Shown here: positions 190 to 16,104 of the stretch, piece after piece
Layout: every line of letters begins with the position of its first letter
How positions within the stretch are numbered: the stretch's first letter is position 1
Assembly: GCA_030628225.1 (NCBI GenBank)
Contig: DAOVRJ010000021.1
Location: forward strand, 1-16,105
Length of the DNA: 16,105 nt
DNA from: Candidatus Zixiibacteriota bacterium
Lineage (GTDB): Bacteria > SM23-81
Direction of reading: 5' to 3'
The notes under the pieces: generated by a model
Database searches by the model: none
What the model was told of the DNA's origin: nothing
Seen by the model: the letters and a program-made list of their open reading frames with translations, nothing else
Translations under genes and position numbers: made by a program

Positions 190-2262
190 CTAATACCCGC
201 GAATTTTCACAATTAACGCCTTGGCTATGTTTTGAGGAATGGGAGCATAGCTGGCGAAAAGCATGGTGTGCACAGCTCTCCCCTGAGTCAACGACCTAAG
301 AGCAGTAGCATATCCGAACATCTCGTTCAGCGCAACTGTGGCTGCCACTACCCGGGCATCGGCCCGATGGCTAACACCCTCTATTTTCCCCCGACGCGAA
401 TTCAGGTCTGACAACACATCCCCCATATATTCCTCGGGGACAACCACCTCAACGTTCATAACAGGCTCTAACAAAATTGGACCTGCTTTGGAAGCTCCAT
501 CCCTGAAAGCCATAGCTGCGGCGATCCGAAAGGCCATCTCTGAAGAATCCACCTCATGATAAGAACCGTCGAGCAAAGTGACCTTGATGTTGTCCATGGG
601 ATAACCGGCTATCACGCCATTTTCCATGGATTCTTTCACACCTTTCTCCACGGAGGAGATGAACTCCCTGGGAACTGATCCGCGGACGACGGCATTCTCG
701 AATTCGAACCCCTGACTGGGTTCCAATCTCAAGATAACGTGGCCGTATTGACCTCTTCCCCCCGTTTGCTTAATGAACTTGCCCTCACTTTTCACTGTCT
801 CAGTGATGGTCTCCTTATAAGAGACCTGCGGCTTACCCACCTTCGCCCCTACTTTAAATTCCCGGAACATCCGCTCCACCAACACCTCTAAATGTAACTC
901 TCCCATCCCAGAAATAATGGTCTGGCCGGTATTCTCATCGGTGCGTACTTGAAAGGTGGGATCTTCATGCGCTAGTTTAGCCAGTGCCTCTTGCAACTTA
1001 TCCTGGTCAATCGTCGTTCGTGGCTCTATGGCCACTGAGATGACTGGGTTGGGAAAGGTCATTTTCTCCAAGAGGATAGGGTGCTTAGGGTCACAAAGGG
1101 TGTCTCCAGTACTAGTCTCACGAAGACCGATGGCCGCTGCTATGTCGCCAGTGTAAATCTCCTGCCGATCTTCCCTTTTGTTGGCGTGCATCTGCAAGAT
1201 CCGGTTCACTCTCTGCTTTTTCTCCTTAGTGGCATTCATGATCTGTGTTCTCACCTTGAGACTTCCCGAATAGACCCTGAAGAATGTAAGGTGGCCCACA
1301 TGAGGATCCGTCATCACCTTAAAAGCCAAAGCCGAAAATGGCGCTTGATCATCCGCTTGGCGTTCTTCCTTATGATGCGTAAAGGGATTCTCTCCAATCA
1401 ACGGCGGCACATCCAAGGGAGATGGCAGGTAATCGATGATAGCATCCATCAACCGCTGCACACCTTTGTTCCGAAATGCCGCCCCACACAAAACTGGAAC
1501 AACCGCGTTGTCCAAAGTGGCTTTTCTTATAGCTGTTTGAATCTCTTGGGGTGTTATTTCCTTACCATCAAGGAACTTAGCCATAAGATGATCATCATGC
1601 TCAACTATAGCCTCCAGAAGCTTCTCACGACGATCCTTCGTTTCTGAGATAAGATCCCGGGGAATGGGAAGCTCGTCGAAGGTAACTCCCAAACTCTCTT
1701 TGTGGTAGACAATGCTGGTCATATTCACCAAATCTATCAGGCCGGTGAACAGCTCACCTGTTCCCAGTGGCACCTGTATGGGCAGGGGGTTTGCACCCAG
1801 TCTGTTTTCCATCATGCTGACCACTTTATCGAAATCAGCCCCTACCCGATCCATTTTGTTGACAAAGGCTATTCGGGGAACTCGATATTTATCCGCCTGT
1901 CTCCAAACAGCCTCTGATTGCGGTTCCACACCCCCTACAGCACAAAAAATGGCCACTGCACCATCCAGCACACGCAAGGAGCGCTCCACCTCTACTGTGA
2001 AGTCCACATGTCCCGGAGTATCAATAATATTAACACGATGATCCCGCCAGAAGATGCTGGTTGCCGCTGAGGTGATGGTGATGCCCCGCTCTCTTTCCTG
2101 GTCCATCCAATCCATTACGGCGGAGCCATCATGAACCTCACCCATCCGGTGGACCTTACCGGTATAATATAGTATTCGCTCTGTTGTGGTTGTCTTGCCG
2201 GCATCGATATGAGCCATGATGCCGATATTTCTGGTCCGCTCCAGCGGATACTTCCTGCCCAT
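190..2262 (-). CDS. fusA: Elongation factor G
   Basis: EF-G is the GTPase that drives mRNA-tRNA translocation and, with RRF, ribosome recycling in the cytoplasm. The protein begins [12 protein letters not shown] and is 690 residues, the usual bacterial length. The GTPase domain carries AHIDAGKT (17-24), DTPGH (81-85) and NKMD (135-138). Domains II (about 300-400), III, IV (about 480-605) and the C-terminal domain V follow without a break, and the sequence ends IVKIRGY. An in-frame GTG at 2319 would add 19 hydrophobic residues with no family counterpart. The ATG at 2262 is preferred because it begins at the conserved N-terminus and has AAGGTGGGGG six bases upstream. It lies third in the rpsL-rpsG-fusA-tuf operon, after a 140-bp gap and before the second tuf. 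This is a canonical fusA-type EF-G with mixed codon use, unlike tuf beside it. Confidence 0.97.
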
Positions 2263-2402: not shown

Positions 2403-2873
2403 TTACCAGCGATAATGAGCAAAAGCCTTGTTGGCCTCTGCCATCTTGTGGGTATCCTCTTTCTTTTTTGCCGAAGCCCCCTCGTTTTTGGAGGCCGACA
2501 TCAATTCAGCGGCGAGGCGTTCTGCCATCGTATGTTCCGGCCGTTGCTTGGCATACCGTATAACCCAGCGAATAGCCAGTGCAGTCCGGCGATTAGCCCT
2601 AACCTCCACGGGAACCTGATAAGTCGCTCCACCCACCCGCCGAGATTTCACCTCTATAACCGGCTTAATATTGTTAACAGCCTTCTGAAAGATGGGTAAA
2701 CCCGGCTGACCCATTTTCTGTTCTATTATCTCCAGAGATTGGTACATGATCCTCTCAGCCAAGCTACGTTTGCCCTTTCTCATCAAACCACTTATAAACA
2801 AACTCAGCAGCGTGTTATCGTACTTCGGATCGGGCAACATCTCTCTGGCACTGGCCTTTCTCCTTCTGGACAT
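2403..2873 (-). CDS. rpsG: 30S ribosomal protein S7
   Basis: S7 nucleates assembly of the 30S head by binding 16S rRNA and contacts tRNA at the E site. The protein is 156 residues, the standard bacterial length, and begins [20 protein letters not shown]. The conserved blocks [12 protein letters not shown] and RRTALAIRW, near the middle, and the terminal NKAFAHYRW are all present. The ATG at 2873 has a purine-rich GGGAGTGGAAG stretch just upstream. It follows rpsL by 18 bp, a gap that holds little beyond this ribosome-binding site. In E. coli, S7 represses its own operon by binding the rpsL-rpsG junction; the short gap here leaves little space for that structure outside the coding sequence. 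Confidence 0.97.
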
Positions 2874-2891
2874 CTTCCACTCCCGTTCCTA

Positions 2892-3287
2892 TCAGTCTCC
2901 AGCAGATCCAACTCGTTTCTTGGGCCTCTTCGTGCCATATTTAGATCGGCTCTGAGTTCGATCCTGGACCCCGCTGGCATCCAATGTGCCTCGAATAACG
3001 TGATACCTCACTCCCGGCAAATCCTTAATTCGCCCCCCCCTGATGAGCACAATAGAGTGCTCCTGCAAATTGTGACCCTCTCCAGGAATATAGGCGGTGA
3101 CTTCCATGGAGTTTGTCAATCTCACCCGGGCCACCTTTCTAAGGGCCGAATTAGGTTTTTTCGGCGTTGAGGTATAAACTCGTGTACATACACCCCTCTT
3201 CTGAGGAGAACCCTTTAAGGCCGGAGCGCCTGTTTTAGATTTGAGGTTCTTTCTCCCTCGACGGATAAGCTGATTTATGGTCGGCAA
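2892..3287 (-). CDS. rpsL: 30S ribosomal protein S12
   Basis: S12 lies at the decoding centre and controls accuracy of codon reading. The 131-residue protein begins [13 protein letters not shown]. It has [11 protein letters not shown] with lysines 43 and 44, and [13 protein letters not shown] with lysine 88 and aspartate 89. These are the sites known in other bacteria for streptomycin resistance mutations and for beta-methylthiolation of the aspartate; here they have the ordinary sensitive-type residues. The start is TTG at 3287, chosen because it gives the canonical N-terminus and lies six bases after GGAGG. The stop TGA is followed immediately by TAG. It is the first gene of the str operon and has its own predicted promoter in the gap after rpoC. 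Confidence 0.97.
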
Positions 3288-3328
3288 ATTACTCCTCCGA
3301 GTATTAAACTAGATAAAAATCAAAATTG

Positions 3329-3342
3329 TTATAAGCTTATAA
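3329..3342. repeat. 14-bp perfect palindrome at the predicted str transcription start
   Basis: TTATAAGCTTATAA is its own reverse complement. It overlaps the downstream half of the predicted -10 box and the likely start site. It could be an operator, or simply AT-rich promoter DNA. Being all A-T except for its central GC, it is a poor candidate for an intrinsic terminator of rpoC. Confidence 0.5.
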
Positions 3343-3368
3343 TATATCAATTATTTTCTGTTTGTCAA
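3339..3368 (-). promoter_or_regulatory. Predicted sigma70-type promoter of the str operon
   Basis: On the minus strand a perfect -35 box TTGACA (3363-3368) is followed after 18 bp by TATTAT (3339-3344), which matches TATAAT at five of six positions. The -35 box starts eight bases after the rpoC stop codon. The gap (3288-3376) is strongly AT-rich compared with the surrounding genes. Transcription would begin near 3332, giving an rpsL leader of about 45 bases. It would allow rpsL-rpsG-fusA-tuf to be expressed independently of rpoBC. Confidence 0.75.
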
Positions 3369-3376
3369 GAAAAAAC

Positions 3377-6300
3377 TTACTCTTCACCCACCAGCGGTTC
3401 ACTATTTTTGCCGTCGACGCTTTTTTGCAACTCCTCCTGTCCTATCCCTTCCTGGACAGCTTCCTGCTCCTCATCAATCTGAATTTTGATTCTACGATAA
3501 TTAGCGAACCCTGTTCCCGCAGGGATAAGATGACCCATAATCACATTTTCCTTCAAGCCCAGTAGTTTGTCTTTTCGACCGTGGATAGCAGCTTCAGTCA
3601 GTACACGAGTTGTCTCCTGAAATGATGCTGCAGAAATGAAACTCTCGGTGCTCAGCGACGCCTTGGTAATACCCAGAAGCATCGTTTGGAAAGTGGCTGG
3701 TTCGCCACCGGTGGCGATGATCTTCTCATTTTCATCTTGGAAGCGAATTTTATCCACCTGCTGACTTTCCAGAAAGATAGTGTCTCCCGGATCCTCCACC
3801 CTTACTTTCTGAAGCATCTGGCGCACTATCACCTCGATATGTTTGTCATTGATCCTGACTCCCTGAAGGCGATACACCTCCTGAATTTCGTTTACCAGAT
3901 ACTCTTGAACGGCCCCGGGGCCTTTGATGTTCAGGATATCATGGGGGTTAATGGGACCTTCGCACAGCCGTTCACCTGACTGAACCCGATCCCGATCTCG
4001 TACTCTGAGATGCTTCCCGTGAGGGATTAAGTATTCCCTGTCCTCGTTCTCACCATGGACGATCAACTTTTGAGCCCCGCGGATGATGCCGGAGAATTCC
4101 ACAATCCCGTCGATTTCGCTTACCACGGCCGGATCGCGCGGCTTCCTGGCCTCAAAAAGCTCTGCTACTCGAGGAAGGCCTCCAGTGATGTCCCGTGTTT
4201 TACTGATCTCTCTGGGAATTTTAACTATAGCATCGCCGGCATGAATCTCTTGGCCATCATGAACCAAAAGGTGCGCTCCCGTTGGAATAGCATAATTTAC
4301 TAACTCTTTCCCTTTACCACCCACGATCACAATTGTGGGATGAAGCGCTTTATCCCGATCCTCCACAATCACCCTTTGACGCAGACCCGTGGTCTCGTCC
4401 AGCTCCTCTCGCAGGCTGACCTCCTCCACAATATCTTGGTATTTCGCCTTGCCAGATTGTTCCGTCAGAATGGTATTGCTGTAAGGGTCCCATTCAAAAA
4501 TGGTTTGACCTTCCTCCACCTTATCTTTATCCCGAACGTGAAATACTGCGCCATAGGGTATGGTATAGCGTGCTCGGGTGTGACCTTCGTCGTCGATGAG
4601 ATCGATTTTCCCGTTTCGTCCCAAAACCACCCACTCTCCGTTCTTTCTCTGAACCATCTTCAGATTATGCGACTTGATGCTTCCAGAGCTTTTCACGCTC
4701 ACTTTAGATTGTGCGGCAATGCGGGCAGCGGTGCCACCGATGTGGAATGTCCTCAAAGTCAGCTGAGTGCCGGGCTCGCCGATGCTCTGGGCGGCCATAA
4801 CACCAGCTGCCTCACCTAACTCCACCATATTGCCTGTGGCTAAGTTTCTGCCATAACACCTTGCACAAACTCCTCGGCGAGATTCGCAGGTGAGGACGGA
4901 ACGAATGCGCACTTTCTCGATGCCACTCTCTTCGATAATCTGTGCAGGTCCCTCGGTGATCTCCTTCCCTGCTTGACAGATCACCTCGTCGCTGATGGGA
5001 TCGATCACGTCCTCCAGGGCTACCCTTCCCAAGATGCGGTCCGAAAGGGTTTCTATGACCTCTTCTCCCTCTTTCAGCGCTCCTATGTCCTGACCTCGGA
5101 TGGTCCCGCAATCTTTTATGGTGATGATGACATCTTGGGCAACATCCACCAGACGGCGCGTAAGATATCCAGCATCAGCCGTTTTCAATGCTGTATCGGC
5201 CAGACCTTTTCTGGCCCCATGTGTGGAGATAAAGTACTCCAGGACAGACAGCCCCTCACGGAAGTTAGAGGTAATGGGTGACTCGATAATCTCGCCCACC
5301 TGGCCGGTAATTCGCTTCTGTGGTTTGGCCATCAGACCCCTCATGCCAGCCAGCTGACGAATCTGCTCCTTGCTGCCCCTGGCTCCAGAATCTGCCATCA
5401 TATAAACCGGATTGAACCCCTTCTTTGACTTGCTGAGCTGTTCGAACATCACCTCGGCCACATCGCTGGTGGTGTGGGTCCATGTGTCGATCACTTTGTT
5501 GTACCGTTCACCATCGGTGATCAGTCCCCGTTCGTATTGCTCTTGAATTTTGGTCACGGCCCGTCGGGCTTTTTCCAAAAGCCCCTTCTTTTCCTTGGGA
5601 ATGATCAGATCATCAATGCCCACGGTAATTCCAGCTAGAGTAGCGTAATTAAAACCAATGCGCTTGAGCTCATCCAGAAAAATAGCTGTTTTGCGCATAC
5701 CTATGATGCGGTATGCCTTAGAAACCAACTCCTCCAGCTTTTTCTTGTCCAACAACTCATTGAAAAAACCGACCTCATCAGGCACAATCTGGTTGAAAAT
5801 CACCCTTCCTGTGGTCGTTTCCTCTGATTTTCCATTAATGCGTACTTTGATTTTAGCCTGGAGACCGAGCTTGCCAGAATCGTAGGCTATGGCTACCTCG
5901 TCGCAGCTAGAGAAGAGTTTCCCCTCCCCCTCCTGTCCCGGGCAGGGTTTTGAAAGGTAATAGCAGCCCAGCACCATATCCTGGCTGGGTATGGCTAATG
6001 GACGACCGTGTGCAGGTGAAAGGATATTATTCGCAGAGAGCATCAAGACGGAGGCCTCTAACTGTGCCTCGTACGAAAGGGGCACATGAACGGCCATCTG
6101 GTCCCCATCGAAATCTGCGTTGAATGCCGCACAGACCAGGGGATGTATCCGGATGGCTTTCCCCTCCACTAGAACAGGCTGGAAGGCTTGAATCCCCAGT
6201 CGGTGCAGGGTTGGTGCTCGGTTCAGAAACACCGGATGGTTCTGAATAATCTCCTCCAGTATGTCCCAGACCTCAGGACGTTCCCTCTCCACTAGTCTCT

Positions 6301-7483
6301 TGGCACTCTTCACTGTCTGTACAAACCCTTTCTCTTCCAACTTTCTTATAATAAAAGGCTTAAAAAGCTCCAAGGCCATAGTTTTGGGCAAACCGCACTG
6401 GTGGAGTTTGAGTTCCGGACCAACCACGATCACCGAACGCCCCGAATAATCCACCCGTTTGCCCAACAGATTCTGTCGAAAGCGACCCTGTTTGCCCCTA
6501 AGCAGGTCGCTGAGAGATTTCAAAGGCCTCTTACCCTCTCCGCGAACCGAGTAAGATCTCCGTCCGTTATCGAGAAGGGCGTCCACTGCCTCCTGGAGCA
6601 TTCTCTTCTCGTTGCGCAAAATTACCTCGGGTGCCTTGATCTCGATAAGCTTCTTTAGCCGATTATTCCGATTGATCACACGCCTATAAAGATCGTTAAG
6701 ATCAGAGGTGGCAAAACGCCCACCTTCCAGAGGAACCAGCGGACGAAGATCGGGCGGGATAACCGGAATAACGCTGAGGATCATCCACTCGGGTTGATTC
6801 TCCGATTGACGAAAAGCCTCCACTACTCTAAGCCTTTTTAGAGCTTCCTTTTTCCGCTGAACAGAGGTTTCCACCTTAACATTGGTGCGAAGTTCAGCTG
6901 AGAGATCCTCTACATTCACCTCCCGGAGTAACTCACGAATGGCCTCGGCTCCCATGCTGGCTCGAAACTCTTGACCTTCCTCTTCTAACTTCAGATACTT
7001 CTCCTCGGAAAGGAGATCCTTTTTACGCAGGTTAGTTTCTCCGGGATCAATTATTACATAAGATTCATAGTACAACACCCGCTCCAGATCCCGAATGGAC
7101 ATCTCTAAAAGATGCCCTATGCGCGAGGGTAACGATTTCAGGAACCAAATATGGGACACAGGAACGGCTAACTCGATATGGCCAAGGCGCTCTCGACGGA
7201 CCTTCGACTGAGTCACCTCTACACCACAGCGATCGCAGATGACACCCCGATAGCGAATTCGCTTATACTTTCCGCAGCTACACTCCCAATCTTTTACCGG
7301 CCCAAAGATGCGCTCACAAAACAGGCCATCCTTCTCCGGCTTAAAGGTCCTATAATTGATGGTCTCTGGCTTTGTTACCTCTCCATAAGACCAGCTTCTA
7401 ATCACCTCTGGCGAGGCCAATTTCACCTGGATGGCCTCAAAAGTCACCAACTTATTTCTTTCCTGCCACATGGACGCTGGCAC
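3377..7483 (-). CDS. rpoC: DNA-directed RNA polymerase subunit beta'
   Basis: Beta' forms half of the polymerase active-site cleft. The product is 1368 residues. The first zinc site is C68, C70, C83, C86 (zipper/clamp region). The catalytic magnesium loop NADFDGD is at 455-461 with aspartates 457, 459 and 461. The second zinc site is C792, C866, C873, C876. The trigger loop starts near 895 ([21 protein letters not shown]) and resumes at about 1095 ([19 protein letters not shown]). An insert of about 175 residues in between is the SI3 position. The tail after about 1335 is acidic. The start is GTG at 7483 with AAGGGGG eight bases upstream; an ATG four codons further in (7471) is possible. It follows rpoB by 37 bp. 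All key residues are intact. Confidence 0.98.
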
Positions 7484-7491
7484 CTAATACG

Positions 7492-7498
7492 CCCCCTT
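7492..7498 (-). promoter_or_regulatory. rpoC ribosome-binding site
   Basis: The minus strand reads AAGGGGG eight bases before the GTG at 7483, inside the 37-bp rpoB-rpoC gap. It favours the GTG start over the ATG four codons downstream, though the two cannot be separated with certainty. Confidence 0.55.
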
Positions 7499-7520
7499 AT
7501 AAAACATCACGGTCAATGAT

Positions 7521-10500
7521 CTATTCCTTATGTCGCTCCTCAAGATGCACATCTAGACAAAGGCTCTGCAGTTCCTTGACCAACACATTAAAGGACTCCG
7601 GAATTCCCGGCTCAGGTGGATTCTCACCTTTAACGATGGCCTCGTAAGTTCGGGATCGACCAGTCACATCATCGGATTTGACGGTGAGCATCTCCTGAAG
7701 AGCGTAAGCCGCCCCGTATGCTTCCAGGGCCCAGACCTCCATCTCTCCAAAGCGCTGACCCCCAAATTGGGCTTTCCCACCCAGAGGTTGCTGGGTAACC
7801 AAAGAGTAGGGACCTATCGATCTAGCGTGGATCTTGTCATCGACCAGATGAGAGAGCTTCATCATATAGATATATCCTACGGTGATCTTCTGGCCGAAGG
7901 GCAATCCGGTTAGACCATCGAACAGGTTTATTTGCCCGGACTCAGGGAGATCAGCCTCTTTCAAAATTTCCTTTATCTCCCCTAAAGATGCGCCATCGAA
8001 AACAGGGCTCTTAAAACGAACCCCTAGCTTTTCTGCAGCCCACCCCAGGTGGGTTTCCAATATTTGCCCCACGTTCATCCTTGAGGGGACACCCAATGGG
8101 TTGAGAACGATCTCTACAGGCGTGCCGTCGGGAAGATGCGGCAAATCCTCCTCGGGCACGATCTTGGCCACAACACCCTTGTTGCCGTGCCTTCCAGCCA
8201 TTTTATCGCCCACGGAGAGCTTTCTCTTCATGGCCACACTAACTTTAACCAACTGCAGCACTCCAGGGGGCAGCATGTCGCCACGAATAACTTTCTCTTT
8301 TTCGTTCTCCAACTTGGTTTTTATGTCATGAACTCGACGTGTGGACGCCTCCAGTACCTTGAAGATCTTTTCGTTAACGGACTCCTTTTTGGTCCAACCA
8401 TCTCCCCACATAAAAGTGCTAAAAATTATCTCATCGAGCAACTTGGCAGTGAACTTCCGACCCGCCCGAATGATCACCGAACCATCCCTTTCGCTGCGTA
8501 TGGTCCTGGCCAGCTGGTCCTTGAGAAGCTCCTTAATTTTGTCATCTCGGATGCGCTTGACTCGATCAATATGTTTTTGCGCTTCCTTCTCCAGATTTAG
8601 AATTTCTTTCCTCTCTATTCTCTTGCTCTCCGGGCTTCTCTCTTTTCTAGAAAAGACTTTAGTATCTATAACAATGCCCTTCATTCCCGGAGTTGCTTTT
8701 AAAGAGGCATCACGCACATCTCCTGCTTTCTCGCCGAATATAGCTCGCAACAACCTTTCCTCGGGCGACAGTTCCGTCTCTCCCTTGGGGGTAACCTTGC
8801 CCACAAGGATATCCCCAGCCTCCACCTCAGCACCAATGCGAATAACACCTCTCTCATCCAGATTTTTTAGCGCATCTTCACTGACGTTTGGTATTTCTCG
8901 GGTGATCTCCTCCTCCCCTCTCTTAGTCTCTCTCACCTGGAGCTCAAATTCCTGGATGTGAACGGAGGTAAACCGGTCTTCCCGAACCAGTCGCTCGCTG
9001 ATGATAATGGCATCTTCAAAATTATACCCATGCCACGGCATGAAAGCCACCAGCACATTGACTCCCAAAGAAATTTCTCCGTGATCGGTTGCCGGACCAT
9101 CTATAATAACCTGTTCCTCTTCAACATGATCTCCCACACGGACAAGCGGCCTTTGATTTAAACAAGTGTCCTGGTTAGATCGTCTGAACTTGGTGAGGAA
9201 TTCCTCGTCGAGCCCGAATAGCTCCCGGGAGAGGTCATCTTTTCCTCTCATCTGGTCGGGGTAGATGGATATTTTCTCTGCCGTAACGCTCTCTACTGAG
9301 CCCGCGCGCCGCGCGACAACCACCGCTCCTGAATCTCTGGCCGCGCGAGTTTCCATGCCAGTGCCTACCAGTGGAGCCTCGGTTATCAACAGGGGCACGG
9401 CCTGCCTTTGCATATTAGAACCCATCAGTGCACGGTTGGCATCATCATGTTCCAAGAAGGGTATCAATGAGGCAGCCGCGCTGACCAGCTGCTTCGGTGA
9501 TACGTCCATGTAGTCCACTTTTAGTGGAGGAACCAGGGGGAAATCTCCCCGGCTGCGGGACATAACCAGCTTCTTCAAGAATTTCCCGTTCTCATCCAGA
9601 GGTGCGTTGGCCTGAGCGATAATGTATTTGTCTTCCCTGTCGGCGGTAAGATACTCAATTTGGTCCGTGACCCGGCCTTTGACCACTTTTCGGTATGGGG
9701 TTTCGATGAACCCCAGTTTGTTAACCCGAGCGTATGTAGACAGCGAGGCGATAAGACCGATGTTGGGACCTTCTGGGGTCTCGATGGGACAGATACGACC
9801 ATAGTGGGTGTGATGAACATCCCGAACCTCGAAACCGGCACGCTCTCGAGTGAGACCGCCAGGACCCAGGGCACTTAACCTTCTCTTGTGGGTCAAAGCT
9901 GCCAGGGGATTGGTCTGATCCATGAACTGGGACAGCTGACTGCTCCCGAAAAAGGCTCCGATAACGGCGGAGACGGTTCGGGCATTGACCAACTCGTGTG
10001 GGCTGATGGATTCCGCATCCCACAGACTCATTCTTTCCTTAATGGTCCGGGCCATTCGAGTAAGGCCAACCCGGAACTGATCCGAAAGAAGCTCTCCTAC
10101 AGAACGCACCCTTCGATTTCCCAGGTGGTCGATATCGTCCACAAAGCCCTCGCCGTTACGCAGACAAAGTAGATAGTCTACGATTTCGATGAAGTCCTCT
10201 TTGGTCAGTATGGTAGTATCATCGGGAATATCAAGGCTCAGCCTCTTGTTCAACCGATATCTGCCCACCCTGCCTAAATTGTACCTTTTGGGGTTAAAAA
10301 ACAGTCTGTCCAATAGAGCTTGCGCCGAGCTCTGATTTGGCGGATCACCGGGACGCAGAAGATTGTAGATCTTATAAAGGGCCTCTTGCTTGGAGCTGGT
10401 AGTATCTTTCTTCATCGTGTTTCGCAACACCCCGGCGTCTCGAGACAGACCCTCAGCCACCACTGTAACCTCGGTGACCTTAATTTGACGCAGGCTCTTA

Positions 10501-11327
10501 AGATGTTCTTCAGTGATCTCCTCGTTGCTGTCGACGATCACCTCGCCGGTGCTTATATCCACGACAGGTACTACACAGATCATGCCCAGCAACCCCTTGT
10601 TTGTTTTAACCGATTTGACTTTGTAAAACAGACTCAGCAGATTCTCATCGGTTGGATAACCCAGAGCTCTCAGGAGAATGGTAACTGGAATTTTCCGTCG
10701 CCTATCAATGTGGACGAACATCAGGTCATTGACGTCCATGGTAAATTCCACCCAGGATCCACGGTAGGGGATGATGCGTGCTGAATAGAGTCGCTTGCCA
10801 TTTGGATGAATCTCCTCGGCGAAGAAGATGCCCGGTGATCTGTGTAGCTGGCTGACGATGACCCTTTCCGCGCCATTGATCACAAAGGTTCCCGCCTTGG
10901 TGATTAATGGAAGATCCCCCAGATAAACCTCCTGTTCCATGACGTCTCGAACCGGTTTCCTCTCCCCCTTATCCCCCTTCTCATAGATAACCAACTGAAG
11001 TGTGGCCTTAAGGGAACCAGCGTAGGTCATGTCTCGTTCCTGACATTCACGGACCGTATACTTCGGCTCGCCCACGTCGAATTTGACGAACTTCAGTCTG
11101 TAGTTTCCGTGGATGTCTGAAATCCCCTCGTCTTTCTCTTTCGTTTTGAGAAAGGTGTCTTCAAAGACCTCATGAAGTCCCTCTCTCTTCCTCTTCTCGG
11201 GCGGCACATCCTTTTGCAGAAAACTCTCAAAGGATTTTAACTGGATGTCCAAGAGATTCGGAATGTCAATGATGGAGGGAATCTTGGAAAAACTCCGCAT
11301 CTTCATCTTTCTGATCTCACTGTGCAC
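7521..11327 (-). CDS. rpoB: DNA-directed RNA polymerase subunit beta
   Basis: Beta forms the other half of the polymerase cleft and the rifampicin pocket. The product is 1268 residues. The rifampicin region [12 protein letters not shown]...[17 protein letters not shown] spans about 460-495. Q467, D470, H480, R483 and S485 match E. coli Q513, D516, H526, R529 and S531, so the site looks wild type. Further blocks are the [13 protein letters not shown] motif (about 514-526), [13 protein letters not shown] (about 768-780), [25 protein letters not shown] (about 843-867), [12 protein letters not shown] (1040-1051) and [33 protein letters not shown] near the end. A charged insert, about 905-1010, precedes the GDKMAGRHG block. 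The start is GTG at 11327, 11 bases after AAGGAG; ATG codons at residues 8 and 10 are weaker alternatives. Only 21 bp separate it from rplL. Confidence 0.98.
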
Positions 11328-11338
11328 TGAGCAACACG

Positions 11339-11344
11339 CTCCTT
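11339..11344 (-). promoter_or_regulatory. rpoB ribosome-binding site
   Basis: AAGGAG lies 11 bases before the GTG at 11327, a slightly long spacing, and almost touches the rplL stop. No promoter, attenuator or RNase-type hairpin fits in this 21-bp gap. Confidence 0.55.
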
Positions 11345-11348
11345 CGAC

Positions 11349-11756
11349 CTACTTGATTTCTATAGTGGCTCCGACCTCTTCCAGCTGAGCCTTCGCCTCT
11401 TCCGCCTCCTCCTTGGACACGGCTTCCTTGACAGGCTTCGGAGCAGTATCCACCACCTCTTTAGCCTCTTTGAGGCCCAAACCGGTGAGAGCCCTAACCA
11501 CCTTAATCACCTGGATCTTCTTATCACCAATTCCGGAGAGAATCACGTCGAATTCTGTTTTCTCCTCGGCAGCTTCGGCAGCAGCACCTCCACCCTCGGC
11601 AGCTGCCGGTGCCATAGCCTGAGCCATAATCGGTGCCGCCGCTGTCACTCCAAACTTCTCCTCCAGCTGCTTAACTAAATCTGCCAGCTCGAGGACCGTC
11701 ATCTTCTCAATACCCTCGATGACCTTTTCGGCGTTGCTCTTTTTCGTTGTTGCCAT
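11349..11756 (-). CDS. rplL: 50S ribosomal protein L7/L12
   Basis: L7/L12 is the multi-copy stalk protein that recruits and stimulates the translational GTPases EF-Tu and EF-G. The 135-residue protein has the three usual parts. The N-terminal dimerisation helices ([19 protein letters not shown], about 19-37) bind L10. An Ala/Gly/Glu hinge covers about 38-66. The globular C-terminal domain ([36 protein letters not shown]...) binds factors. It is a little longer than the common 120-128 residues because of the hinge and a longer N-terminus. The ATG at 11756 has a very strong ribosome-binding site, GGAGGTGAA, six bases upstream, fitting its need for several copies per ribosome. It follows rplJ by 26 bp. 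Confidence 0.97.
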
Positions 11757-11762
11757 AAAACC

Positions 11763-11771
11763 TTCACCTCC
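11763..11771 (-). promoter_or_regulatory. Strong rplL ribosome-binding site
   Basis: GGAGGTGAA, six bases before the rplL ATG, is the longest match to the anti-Shine-Dalgarno sequence among the genes checked in this window. It plausibly provides the excess of L7/L12 over L10 needed for the stalk. Confidence 0.65.
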
Positions 11772-11782
11772 ATAAAGGGTTC

Positions 11783-12538
11783 TTAGTTTTCTTGCTGTTT
11801 CTCATTATCCGGTTCAGTCTCTTCCGGCTGATCTTCAGTTTGCTCCTGGGATTCAGCTGACTTCGCCTTATCACTATCAGTTTTCTCCTCCGCAGGTTTC
11901 TCCTCAGAGGGCTTCTCATCCACGCCTCTCGTCTCCGCCGGCTCAGGCTTTACCTCCACAGCCGGTTTCTGCGCTTCTTCCTTCACCTCCTCAGCCTTCT
12001 CCTCAAGAACCACCTTCTCACTTTCACCCTTTTTCCTTGAGATAGCTTCAATAAGGCTGACAAAGTTTCTCAGCAGACTGGCGAGAACCATCACGGTCTG
12101 AGTAATAGGTGCTTTCATACCGCTGACCATCTGAGTCAGTAACTCCTCGCGGGACGGGATATTTTTCAGCCGACCCATGGCCTCTTGTTCAAAGAGCTGA
12201 CCTTCAAAGAGGATCGCCTTAATAGATGGTTTTCCCGTCTTTTGCGCAAAGCGACTTAGTAGCTTAGCTGGCAACGCAGGATCCTCGAACCCAAAGGCTA
12301 TGGCGGTTGGACCAATAAGATATGGCTTTAAACCCTCGTATCCAGCCTTATCTACCGCCAGACTGGCCAGCGTATTTTTAACAACCAGGTACTCCACCGA
12401 ATTTTCGCGCAGGAGAAACCTCAGCTCGTTAATGGACTCCACATCCAGCCCAGTAAAATCAGTAAGGTAAAGGCTCTGGGTGCGTTTTATCTTTTCTGCA
12501 ATTTCATCGACAACAGCAACTTTTTCTGGGCGAGCCAT
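11783..12538 (-). CDS. rplJ: 50S ribosomal protein L10 with long acidic C-terminal tail
   Basis: L10 anchors L7/L12 dimers to 23S rRNA at the base of the stalk. Residues 1 to about 168 are a standard L10: [29 protein letters not shown] at the N-terminus, then [22 protein letters not shown], and a C-terminal helix with [14 protein letters not shown] that would carry L7/L12. The protein then continues for about 83 residues of Glu/Lys/Pro/Ala/Gln-rich sequence with about 29 acidic residues and no aromatic residue or cysteine. This makes 251 residues instead of the usual 165-175. The frame stays open and codon use looks like the rest of the gene, so it is probably translated. The ATG at 12538 follows GGGAG with an eight-base spacing. 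The 22-bp gap before it leaves no room for an L10-type leader. Confidence 0.95.
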
Positions 12539-12560
12539 ATCTTTAACTCCCGGTACAGGC

Positions 12561-13262
12561 TTATTTTACAAGTTTCAATAGCTCATTAATGTCCAGTTTA
12601 ATTCCCGGACCCATGGTTGAGGAAACGACGATGCTGCGTAAATATTGCCCTTTTGCCGCAGAGGGTTTTGCCTTCAAAACAGCCTGAAAAAAAACGGTGG
12701 CATTAGCCATCAATTTTTCCACTTCGAAAGACTTCTTTCCGATGGGAACGTGAAGAATTCCAGTTTTGTCAACGCGATACTCAATCTTACCCGCTTTTAC
12801 TTCCTTGACCGCCTTCTCCACTTCAAAGGTCACCGTGCCGCTCTTGGGGTTCGGCATCAATCCTCTAGGCCCCAGAATCCGGCCCAGCTTTCCCACCATC
12901 CCCATCATATCCGGGGTCGCAATAACCACATCCACATCGGTCCATCCCTGAGAGATTTTTTCCACATACTCCTCTGAGCCATAATAATCTGCCCCGGCGA
13001 GCTCCGCCTCTTTTTCCTTCTCCCCCTTGGCCAAAACGAGAACCTTAACCTTCTTACCAGTCCCGTGAGGTAAAATAACCGTTCCCCTCACTACCTGATC
13101 AGCATGCTTAGGGTCCACGCCGAGACGGATAGATAGTTCGATCGTCTCATCGAACTTCGCTGCAGCCATGTCTTTAATCAATCTCAAGGCCTCTTGGAGG
13201 GAGTACTTCTGGGCTCGATCAATTCCCCCTAGCGACTCTGTGTACTTCTTTCCGTGTTTCAT
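12561..13262 (-). CDS. rplA: 50S ribosomal protein L1
   Basis: L1 forms the mobile stalk next to the E site and helps release deacylated tRNA. In E. coli it also represses the L11-L1 mRNA. The protein, from the ATG at 13262, begins [10 protein letters not shown] and is 233 residues, the family norm. Conserved stretches are [34 protein letters not shown], the [19 protein letters not shown] block in the RNA-binding region, and the terminal [12 protein letters not shown]. An in-frame TTG at 13280 would add six residues but would lie two codons from the rplK stop without a ribosome-binding site. The ATG has GGGGAAGGG five bases upstream. It is 20 bp from rplK. Confidence 0.97.
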
Positions 13263-13267
13263 CTGTA

Positions 13268-13276
13268 CCCTTCCCC
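13268..13276 (-). promoter_or_regulatory. rplA ribosome-binding site (decides the start)
   Basis: GGGGAAGGG lies five bases before the ATG at 13262. It supports the start MKHGKKY over the TTG six codons upstream. Confidence 0.6.
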
Positions 13277-13282
13277 ACAAGA

Positions 13283-13708
13283 TCAGTTAACTATCTCAAT
13301 TCCCATGCTGCGCGCTGTGCCAGCAATCATTCTCATGGCAGCTTCGACATCTGCTGCGTTCAGATCTGGTTTCTTCAATTCAGCTATTTCTCTCAACTGC
13401 TGCTGGGTTACTTTTCCGACCTTCTCCCGATTGGGCTCTCCCGAAGCCTTCTCCAGACCAGCGGCTTTTTTCAATAAAACGGCGGCAGGCGGCGTTTTTG
13501 TTATGAACGAAAAGGTTCTGTCTGCATAAACGCTTATTACCACGGGGATTATCAAACCCTCCTGCTTCTTGGTTCGGGAGTTGAATGACTTACAAAATTC
13601 CATGATGTTCACCCCATGCTGCCCTAAAGCTGGACCCACGGGAGGAGCCGGGCTGGCTTTGCCCGCGGGAATTTGCAACTTGATGGTTCCCATAATTTTC
13701 TTAGCCAT
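13283..13708 (-). CDS. rplK: 50S ribosomal protein L11
   Basis: L11 binds the GTPase-associated centre of 23S rRNA and, in many bacteria, is needed for stringent-response sensing by RelA. The 141-residue protein has the full family length. It begins [43 protein letters not shown]; the proline-rich N-terminal part is the thiostrepton-sensitive region and is unaltered. The C-terminal RNA-binding domain ends in [16 protein letters not shown]. The ATG at 13708 has a weak ribosome-binding site (AGGTTGA). It sits 33 bp after nusG and 20 bp before rplA. Confidence 0.97.
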
Positions 13709-13741
13709 TATTCAACCTGCTTCTTGAGATGTACTTGATGT

Positions 13742-14272
13742 TTAGAGACTTTTAACCTGTAGAAAATCAAGCTCCACCGGCGTAGAACGTCCAAATATGC
13801 TCACCATAACCTTTAATTTCTCTCGCTCTACGTTTACCTCGTTAACAACACCCGAGAAATCGTTGAAAGGTCCATCAATCACTTTAACGGCATCACCGGC
13901 ACGAAAGGGAACCTCGGCGGATTTCTTGGATCTTCCGTGTTCCATCTGGCCTTGGATTCGCTGAACCTCCTTTTCACTAAGCGGCTGCGGGTACGCTCCA
14001 GAGCTCACAAAGCTGGTAACTCCGGGGGTCGAAGTTACCAGAGCCATGGTGTCGCGCGTAAGTTCCATCTGGATAAGGAGGTAGCTGGGCAGAAATTTCC
14101 GGTCAGAAACTATTCGTTTCCCACCTTTCATTTCCACCACTTCCTCTATGGGAACTAATACCTCAGCGATCTTATCCTCAAACCCCTGGTTTAATATTGC
14201 GTTTTCCAGGTATCGTTTGACTTTTTTCTCATGTCCTGAGTAAGTATGAACGACATACCACTTCTTTTCCAC
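13742..14272 (-). CDS. nusG: Transcription termination/antitermination factor NusG
   Basis: NusG binds the beta' clamp and beta lobe to keep RNA polymerase processive. Its KOW domain contacts Rho or ribosomal protein S10, coupling transcription to translation or termination. The 176-residue protein has the NGN domain at about 4-100 (KWYVVHTYSGHEKKVKRYLENAI, LPSYLLIQMELTRDTMALVTSTPGVTSFV) and the KOW domain at about 122-170 (FRAGDAVKVIDGPFNDFSGVVNEVN). The start is GTG at 14272 with GAGGT about eight bases upstream. It follows secE by 44 bp, the standard secE-nusG pair found in most bacteria. Confidence 0.97.
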   Translation of the reverse strand: MEKKWYVVHTYSGHEKKVKRYLENAILNQGFEDKIAEVLVPIEEVVEMKGGKRIVSDRKFLPSYLLIQMELTRDTMALVTSTPGVTSFVSSGAYPQPLSEKEVQRIQGQMEHGRSKKSAEVPFRAGDAVKVIDGPFNDFSGVVNEVNVEREKLKVMVSIFGRSTPVELDFLQVKSL

Positions 14273-14587: not shown

Positions 14588-14664
14588 TGGCAGGCCTGGA
14601 GGGATTCGAACCCCCAACACCCGGATTTGGAGTCCAGTGCTCTAGCCGTTAGAGCTACAGGCCT
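14588..14664 (-). tRNA. trnW: tRNA-Trp (anticodon CCA), CCA end encoded
   Basis: The minus strand folds into a full cloverleaf. The acceptor stem is AGGCCTG/CAGGCCT. The D stem is GCTC/GAGC, the anticodon stem CTGGA/TCCGG holds loop CTCCAAA (anticodon CCA, codon UGG), and the variable loop is GTGTT. The T arm is GGGGG-TTCGAAT-CCCTC. The discriminator base is G, the known identity element for bacterial tRNA-Trp, followed by an encoded CCA. The gene sits between rpmG and secE, the order rpmG-trnW-secE being common in bacteria, and is probably cut from the tuf-secE transcript. Confidence 0.97.
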
Positions 14665-14898: not shown

Positions 14899-16104
14899 TT
14901 ATTCGATGATCTCGGAGACGACGCCGGCACCGACTGTGCGACCGCCCTCACGTATGGCAAACCGCAACTCCTTCTCCATCGCTATGGGCGTGATCAACTC
15001 CACCTCCAACCGCGTATTGTCACCAGGCATCACCATCTCCACACCATCCGGCAACTTCACCGTCCCGGTCACATCCGTAGTCCGAAAATAAAACTGCGGC
15101 CGATAACCATTGAAAAACGGCGTGTGACGACCACCCTCCTCCTTGGTCAACACATACATCTCACCCTTAAACTTCGTATGCGGCGTAATACTACCCGGCT
15201 TGGCCAACACCATCCCCCGCTCCAACGAATCCTTGTCCACACCACGCAACAACACACCAACATTATCACCCGCCTGACCCTGATCCAATAACTTACGAAA
15301 CATCTCCACCCCGGTCACCACCGTCTTACGCGTCTCCCGCATACCCACTATCTCCACCTCTTCACCCACACGAATAATACCACGCTCCACACGCCCCGTA
15401 CCCACCGTCCCACGACCCGTTATCGTAAACACATCCTCCACCGGCAACAAAAAAGGCTTGTCTATATCACGCTCCGGCAACGGTATATACGTGTCTACCG
15501 CATCCAATAACTCATATATACTCTTAAACGCCTCACTATCCTTCACATCCGGCTTCAACGCCTCCGTCATCGCCTGCAACGCACTACCACACACCACCGG
15601 TATCTCATCACCAGGAAACTCATACTTGCTCAATAACTCCCGAACCTCCAACTCCACCAACTCCAATAACTCCGGATCATCCACCTGATCTACCTTGTTC
15701 AAATACACCACTATCGACGGCACATTCACCTGCCGTGCCAACAAAATATGCTCCCGCGTCTGCGGCATCGGCCCATCAGCCGCACTCACCACCAATATCG
15801 CACCATCCATCTGCGCCGCACCGGTAATCATATTCTTCACATAATCCGCATGACCAGGACAATCCACATGCGCATAATGACGCTTCTCCGTCTCATACTC
15901 CACATGCGCCACCGCTATCGTCAAACCACGCTCCCGCTCCTCAGGCGCATTGTCTATACTATCAAACGTCCGCTGATCCGCAAAACCCTTACGACTCAAT
16001 ATCAACGTTATCGCCGCCGTCAACGTCGTCTTCCCATGATCCACATGCCCTATCGTCCCCACATTAATATGCGGCTTCGTCCGCTTAAACTTCTCCTTCG
16101 GCAT
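14899..16104 (-). CDS. tuf: Elongation factor Tu, complete copy
   Basis: EF-Tu-GTP carries aminoacyl-tRNA to the ribosome. The 401-residue protein is full length. It has P-loop GHVDHGKT (19-26), switch I RERGLTI with T62, DCPGH (81-85), NKVD (136-139) and SAL (174-176), then domains II and III ending [10 protein letters not shown]. The ATG at 16104 is one base from the window edge, so its ribosome-binding site is not visible. Codon use is striking: in codons 1-368 only 14 end in C, no leucine is CTN, and isoleucine is ATA 13, ATT 6, ATC 0. In codons 369-401, 13 of 33 end in C. No other gene here looks like this. It heads the rpmG-trnW-secE-nusG cluster. The first 140 bases recur at the left edge as a second tuf copy. 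Confidence 0.97.

Follow-up and report, generated by a model that had tools for sequence, protein, structure and literature searches.

Over most of its length, the tuf gene of a Candidatus Zixiibacteriota bacterium, which encodes the most abundant protein of translation, EF-Tu, is written in synonymous codons that are mostly rare in its own genome (GCG, ACG, ATA, TTG, AGT, CGT), and shortly before its stop codon it returns to C-ending, host-like codons. The same kind of regime, limited to the body of tuf, is found independently in many other bacterial lineages and is associated with the presence of a second tuf copy. We propose that it reflects a bias that goes with conversion between tufA and tufB over the tract they share, a reading which we regard as plausible though somewhat short of probable.

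RESULTS

Gene layout and identity of tuf

The window, i.e. the whole stretch of DNA that was analysed (16,105 nucleotides), is the entire contig C124 of a draft genome of 2.34 Mb in 306 contigs. On the minus strand the gene order is tuf, tRNA-Trp, secE, nusG, rplK, rplA, rplJ, rplL, rpoB, rpoC, rpsL, rpsG and fusA, followed by 46 codons of a second tuf (Table 1). The GTP_EFTU domain (PF00009, E 1.9e-65), the open frame of 401 aa and the tRNA-Trp/secE context identify the product as EF-Tu, which is 69–81% identical to tuf from many phyla. The two ends of the contig (positions 1–141 and 15965–16105) are identical over exactly 141 nt, which, judging from the sequence, probably represents the k-mer overlap of the assembler. 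Since the ends are identical, tuf sequence is present both after fusA and before trpT–secE. A second copy after fusA is thus implied; its start is identical over the 141 nt, and its remainder is absent from the assembly. The window's tuf is the organism's own gene for EF-Tu and one of a pair. An earlier note on this DNA had described the codon style as starting at the ATG in both copies; the fragment at the left edge gives no independent read-out of the style of that copy.

Table 1. Features of the window considered in the analysis
Feature	Positions	Strand	Remarks
tuf, whole gene	14899-16104	-	401-aa open frame
tuf body, codons 1-386	14947..16104	-	G/T-ending four-codon boxes, ATA, TTG/TTA, AGT, NNT; from codon counts and best split after codon 386
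tuf tail, codons 387-401 and stop	14899..14946	-	host-like C-ending codons; read from sequence
Second tuf copy (tufA), first 46 codons	1..140	-	downstream of fusA, truncated by contig edge
fusA	190..2262	-	codon reference neighbour, mixed codons
rpsG, rpsL, rpoC, rpoB, rplL, rplJ, rplA, rplK, nusG	2403..14272	-	codon reference neighbours, mixed codons
tRNA-Trp (CCA)	14588..14664	-	between tuf and secE, usual tufB context

Contigs L250 and L176 show the same end identity, over 151 nt, and such assemblies are probably broken by the tuf repeat at the k-mer length of the assembler. Elsewhere in the window's genome (G000), GroEL is split across two contig ends (L281 and L282, on contigs C41 and C286), rpsJ is truncated at the start of contig C150, and the tufA–S10 junction is absent from the stretches read.

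Codon choice in the body of tuf

Codons 1–368 of tuf include 14 C-ending codons, as compared with 91 ± 8 expected for the same protein written with the codon usage of the neighbours; the lowest count among 2000 draws from that usage was 62. Third bases at four-fold degenerate sites (A/C/G/T) amount to 3/5/116/44 in these codons and to 365/560/557/529 in the other genes of the window (chi-square p about 1e-31). Leucine is encoded in the gene by TTG (28) or TTA (4) and never by CTN, phenylalanine by TTT 13 times and by TTC once, tyrosine by TAT in 10 of 10 cases and histidine by CAT nine times and by CAC once, while the isoleucines of codons 1–368 are ATA (13) or ATT (6), with no ATC. Our recount thus reproduces every figure for C-ending, Leu, Phe, Tyr, His and Ile codons in the earlier note, and the codon counts of the remaining window genes, all of mixed usage, confirm the contrast that it drew between tuf and its neighbours.

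Recurrence of the style in other bacteria

The survey compared tuf with its neighbouring genes at 136 loci from 111 family-level groups, a tuf body being called styled on the four-fold G difference between it and its neighbours together with an ATA criterion. The G difference is most often near zero, and 29 loci form a shoulder above +0.2. A styled body was found at 32 of the 136 loci, representing 26 of the 111 groups; the loci were sampled by similarity to the window's tuf, with relatives chosen by the tool, and this share of about a quarter is no census. The style requires 10 changes on a tree of 78 taxa. An assembly artefact is excluded, as the same regime occurs in the complete genome G039.

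The common direction is towards G-ending codons in four-codon boxes, usually accompanied, outside GC-rich genomes, by AUA, UUR and AGY. In the mean of 14 styled lineages, the codons that rise are GCG, ACG, CCG, GGG, GTA, TTG, TTA, ATA, AGT, AGC, GAG and AAG, those ending in C or U fall in most four-codon boxes, and the two-fold NNY codons show no common direction. In GC-rich styled lineages, G replaces C in the four-codon boxes (reaching 0.94 in L320), while isoleucine is ATC and C is retained in NNY codons. For this reason 'C-avoiding' describes the window only, and 'G-ending wherever G is possible' fits the phenomenon. A pure bias in base composition is excluded, since UUR leucine codons are up even where the NNU share is down (L219, L318, L324) and four-fold C disappears while two-fold C stays (L227, four-fold C 0.01 versus 41% C in two-fold NNY codons). 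The styled bodies also obey a context rule, in that two-fold pyrimidine codons tend to be NNC before A and more often NNU otherwise (31 of 32); the rule is much weaker in neighbouring genes and absent from unstyled tuf. As a separate observation, the rpo and ribosomal genes of L176 (Deltaproteobacteria bacterium S146_84) use ATA for 79% of Ile and AGR for about 77% of Arg, which is uncommon in a bacterium whose base composition is mixed.

Reversal of the bias near the 3′ end

By maximum likelihood, the window's tuf is best split after codon 386, and the codons beyond are C-rich (they include CGC, GTC, GCC, GGC, GTC, GTC, TCC, ATC and ATC); from codon 383 on, four-fold C is 0.69 and four-fold G 0.00. 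In the styled set as a whole, the bias weakens beyond about codon 371 and has turned round near codon 385. The best split falls at codons 368–396 in 31 of the 32 (median 384.5), usually 5 to 33 codons ahead of the stop codon (median 16–17). Four-fold G in the styled tails is 0.25 versus 0.26 in the neighbours, where the body would predict 0.53, and four-fold C is 0.42 versus 0.31 (z about 4.5). At the start of the gene, only about five codons carry the style weakly. The switch was looked for in the unstyled tuf genes of the survey, single or duplicated, and none was found. The tail is an internal control: without the regime of the body, the gene resembles a normal C-optimised gene. This return to C-optimised codons argues against the body codons being simply the best ones for translation.

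Association with a second tuf copy

A second tuf copy, or a contig-end fragment of one, is present in 26 of the 32 styled genomes; as for the other six, no second copy was seen in four drafts and two named contigs could not be judged. None of the eight near-complete genomes with a single tuf is styled. A second copy is found in at least 18 unstyled genomes as well, so that two copies are at most necessary and duplication is insufficient. The association of copy number with style (26/0 versus 18/8) gives a Fisher p of 0.004, which becomes non-significant (p 0.19) once styled drafts in which no second copy was seen are put in the single-copy class. In drafts that have a single full tuf hit, a further tuf fragment at equal E-value is visible for 9 of 20 styled genomes, as compared with 3 of 45 unstyled ones (p 0.0006). 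Over the 3′ part seen, identity between the two copies is 99% in the relative G001 and 97% in the relative G003; in G003 the differences lie mainly within the last 45 nt of the sequenced part. The copies of G039 differ in the body and not in the tail. One further second copy (G153:C1:103105-104290) is read in two frames, which change near query codon 355 through either a frameshift or an assembly error.

Expression level and origin of tuf

On a tuf-versus-genome codon likelihood, tuf (z = 8.1) is the lone outlier among the 287 ORFs of more than 150 codons in its genome, and it is again the lone outlier in sampled stretches of two further genomes, including the complete G039 (three genomes in total). 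For ribosomal proteins, fusA, rpoB and rpoC, z stays within about 0 to 2. Since GroEL and the ribosomal proteins of the same genome lack the style, it does not represent how this genome writes highly expressed genes in general, and the preference is not one common to other abundant proteins; an expression gradient within the genome was discarded as well. These data agree with the alternative raised in the earlier note, namely that something special acts on tuf alone. Classical adaptation to high expression would imply that NNG, ATA and UUR codons are optimal in these slow growers and that tuf alone is expressed enough to reveal them. The ribosomal proteins of G000, at z 1–2, and a large surface-like ORF, rplU and rplI of G039, all shifted slightly towards the tuf style, would fit this proposal, but it is largely contradicted by the two pieces of GroEL (z −0.1 and −0.4), by rplL (1.4) and by the tail of tuf itself, which runs the opposite way, and we consider it improbable. 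The surface-like ORF of G039 (780 aa, L256:3-2342) has the codon usage nearest to tuf after tuf itself (ATA for 33 of 50 Ile; AGY 25, TCN 6). The earlier note had suggested instead that tuf was transferred from a lineage with other codon preferences and that both copies were then converted. The abrupt contrast of tuf with every neighbour would be consistent with such a transfer, as would the synonymous codons in common with other styled lineages, which are slightly above chance (z up to 4.6). However, the EF-Tu protein tree groups the window's tuf with KSB1 and Calditrichota, in concordance with rpoB, the best matches of which among named genomes are from Zixibacteria (66%), followed by KSB1 and Calditrichales. 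Relatives also share the trait: the C-terminal part of tuf from a genome of the same family is 98% identical and written in the same way, and in another family of the phylum a related, purine-ending style occurs. The regime is, moreover, present in 26 family-level groups, and the style requires 10 changes on the tree. The synonymous sharing among styled lineages is mostly due to codon usage and next-base context (identity 0.491 observed, 0.482 expected from these two). On this sequence evidence the window's tuf is neither a foreign gene nor a recent transfer, and horizontal transfer appears extremely improbable as the source of the style. The refuting conditions set in the earlier note come out divided: close relatives have the style, which speaks against a foreign gene, but GroEL and the ribosomal proteins of the genome do not. 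Inter-phylum recombination tracts were considered as well and rejected; a few shared runs do beat the permutations (e.g. 77 nt between L304 and L309), but overall sharing is near expectation.

DISCUSSION

Concerted evolution of tufA and tufB by gene conversion is established (Lathe and Bork 2001, as cited in PMC6053082) and extends over 29 orders in PMC6053082, where it is remarked that conversion can spread optimised codons. In such systems the two tuf copies are kept near-identical within the coding sequence only, and conversion falls sharply toward the 3′ end of the gene; a codon regime, a base bias or a 3′ codon switch was not found described for them. In mismatch-repair-deficient Salmonella, the rate of tufA/tufB conversion per generation is about 1e-3 at nt 362, 2e-3 at nt 679 and 2e-5 at nt 1126 of 1185 (PMC5485169), i.e. 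about 100-fold rarer at nt 1126 than in mid-gene, with the authors' caution that the last value comes from a different assay. The 3′ edge of the style is similarly far from the stop codon. We favour conversion on account of the switch in the tail, the link with a second copy and this 3′ drop in Salmonella; the hint in the earlier note that conversion between the copies matters thereby gains support. The synonymous sites under the regime would be confined to the stretch common to both copies and homogenised by gene conversion, which would either cause the style or permit it. Heteroduplex repair or repair synthesis might favour coding-strand purines, and G most of all; alternatively, conversion might spread synonymous changes to both copies in the body and not at the 3′ edge. 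That the style would reveal an undescribed strand-asymmetric bias accompanying conversion of duplicated bacterial genes, which rewrites synonymous sites against host preference and halts at the edge of homology, is possible but rather doubtful.

Among the genes scored the style is restricted to tuf, and it is recurrent, associated with a second copy and ends before the stop codon, all of which speaks for conversion. Biased conversion would require a directional base bias limited to converted tracts; the bias seen is limited to the tuf body and fades near its 3′ edge, but the asymmetry of G over C does not follow from such a scheme. From biased conversion of the ordinary kind one would expect neither a distinction between G and C on the coding strand nor a preference for AUA, and its GC-biased form gives neither the AUA/UUR preferences nor the NNC-before-A rule. 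Against conversion there are also the divergence of the G039 copies in the body and not in the tail, the short extent of the 5′ weakness, and the rise of UUR leucine codons despite falling NNU, which looks codon-level rather than base-level. The codon identities are better explained by the main rival, selection for under-used isoacceptor tRNAs, in which tuf would be written for tRNAs left idle by the other proteins (in four-codon boxes the C34/U34 readers, and also the AUA reader, Leu-UUR and Ser-AGY). Synthesis of EF-Tu could then continue once the bulk tRNAs run short, a behaviour that follows from selective-charging theory for amino-acid starvation. The rarity in the genome of most codons preferred by tuf, a tRNA gene set which in the anticodon listing is broad and single-copy with many C34 isoacceptors, and the codon-level behaviour (four-fold C nearly gone while NNY C is kept, UUR up regardless of NNU, a strong context rule) would all suit this view. 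In the theory of Elf and colleagues (PMC1183508), moreover, UUG and UUA, the leucine codons preferred in tuf, are predicted to be less sensitive than CUN to leucine limitation, although it accounts for neither a reverting tail nor a dependence on a second tuf copy. Selection for idle tRNAs likewise does not predict the reversion of the tail to C-ending codons beyond the level of the neighbours, gives no reason for the link with a second copy, and is at odds with GroEL and ribosomal proteins lacking the pattern and with the use of ATC, not ATA, in GC-rich styled genomes; we regard it as a serious candidate but unlikely to be correct. Selection at the mRNA level (avoidance of structure or of Rho loading on C-rich RNA, purine loading, an overlapping or antisense frame) could be suggested by the composition of the window's tuf body (C 14%, G 39%) and by L051, L219 and L222, which fold less stably than their neighbour-codon versions. 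Avoidance of structure was nevertheless rejected, because the fold energy in the window equals that of neighbour-codon versions (−31.5 versus −31.0), and L232 is more stable. C-avoidance or Rho resistance was rejected because GC-rich styled lineages keep C in NNY codons, and purine loading is a poor fit to a gene that uses GGT and CGT over GGG/GGA and AGR. Off-frame and antisense stops are near their permuted expectation, so that overlapping or antisense ORFs and hidden-stop effects were rejected too; the large antisense ORFs are probably a by-product of G-ending codons. Altogether, an mRNA-level cause seems very improbable.

Thermophiles prefer AGR, AUA and purine-ending codons genome-wide. 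Styled tuf genes resemble them in AUA and, in several lineages, in AGG and purine-ending codons, but here the preference is confined to tuf. The codons of tuf affect fitness in Salmonella, one of the fast growers in which the gene is codon-optimised (PMC4786093). The likeness to the window's tuf lies in a strong gene-wide synonymous bias in the same gene; however, Salmonella tuf uses its genome's optimal, highly expressed codons, whereas the window's tuf uses mostly genome-rare ones in its body and looks optimised in the tail only. A codon regime confined to a converted tuf body was not found described in the open-access papers searched, which is weak evidence of novelty.

The gene encoding EF-Tu is a widely used phylogenetic marker, and both gene conversion and codon optimisation in bacteria have been modelled on it. 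If the body of tuf is written against the host's preference in many lineages, and its last stretch in line with it, predictors of codon adaptation or growth rate may go astray when they rely on tuf as their standard of high expression. Within a single gene, the switch near the 3′ end also provides a natural test of whether base composition in bacteria is biased by conversion itself, or of how cells shield EF-Tu synthesis from competition for tRNAs. If a strand-asymmetric conversion bias holds true, tuf would bear a visible record of conversion inside one gene, repeated in many bacterial lineages.
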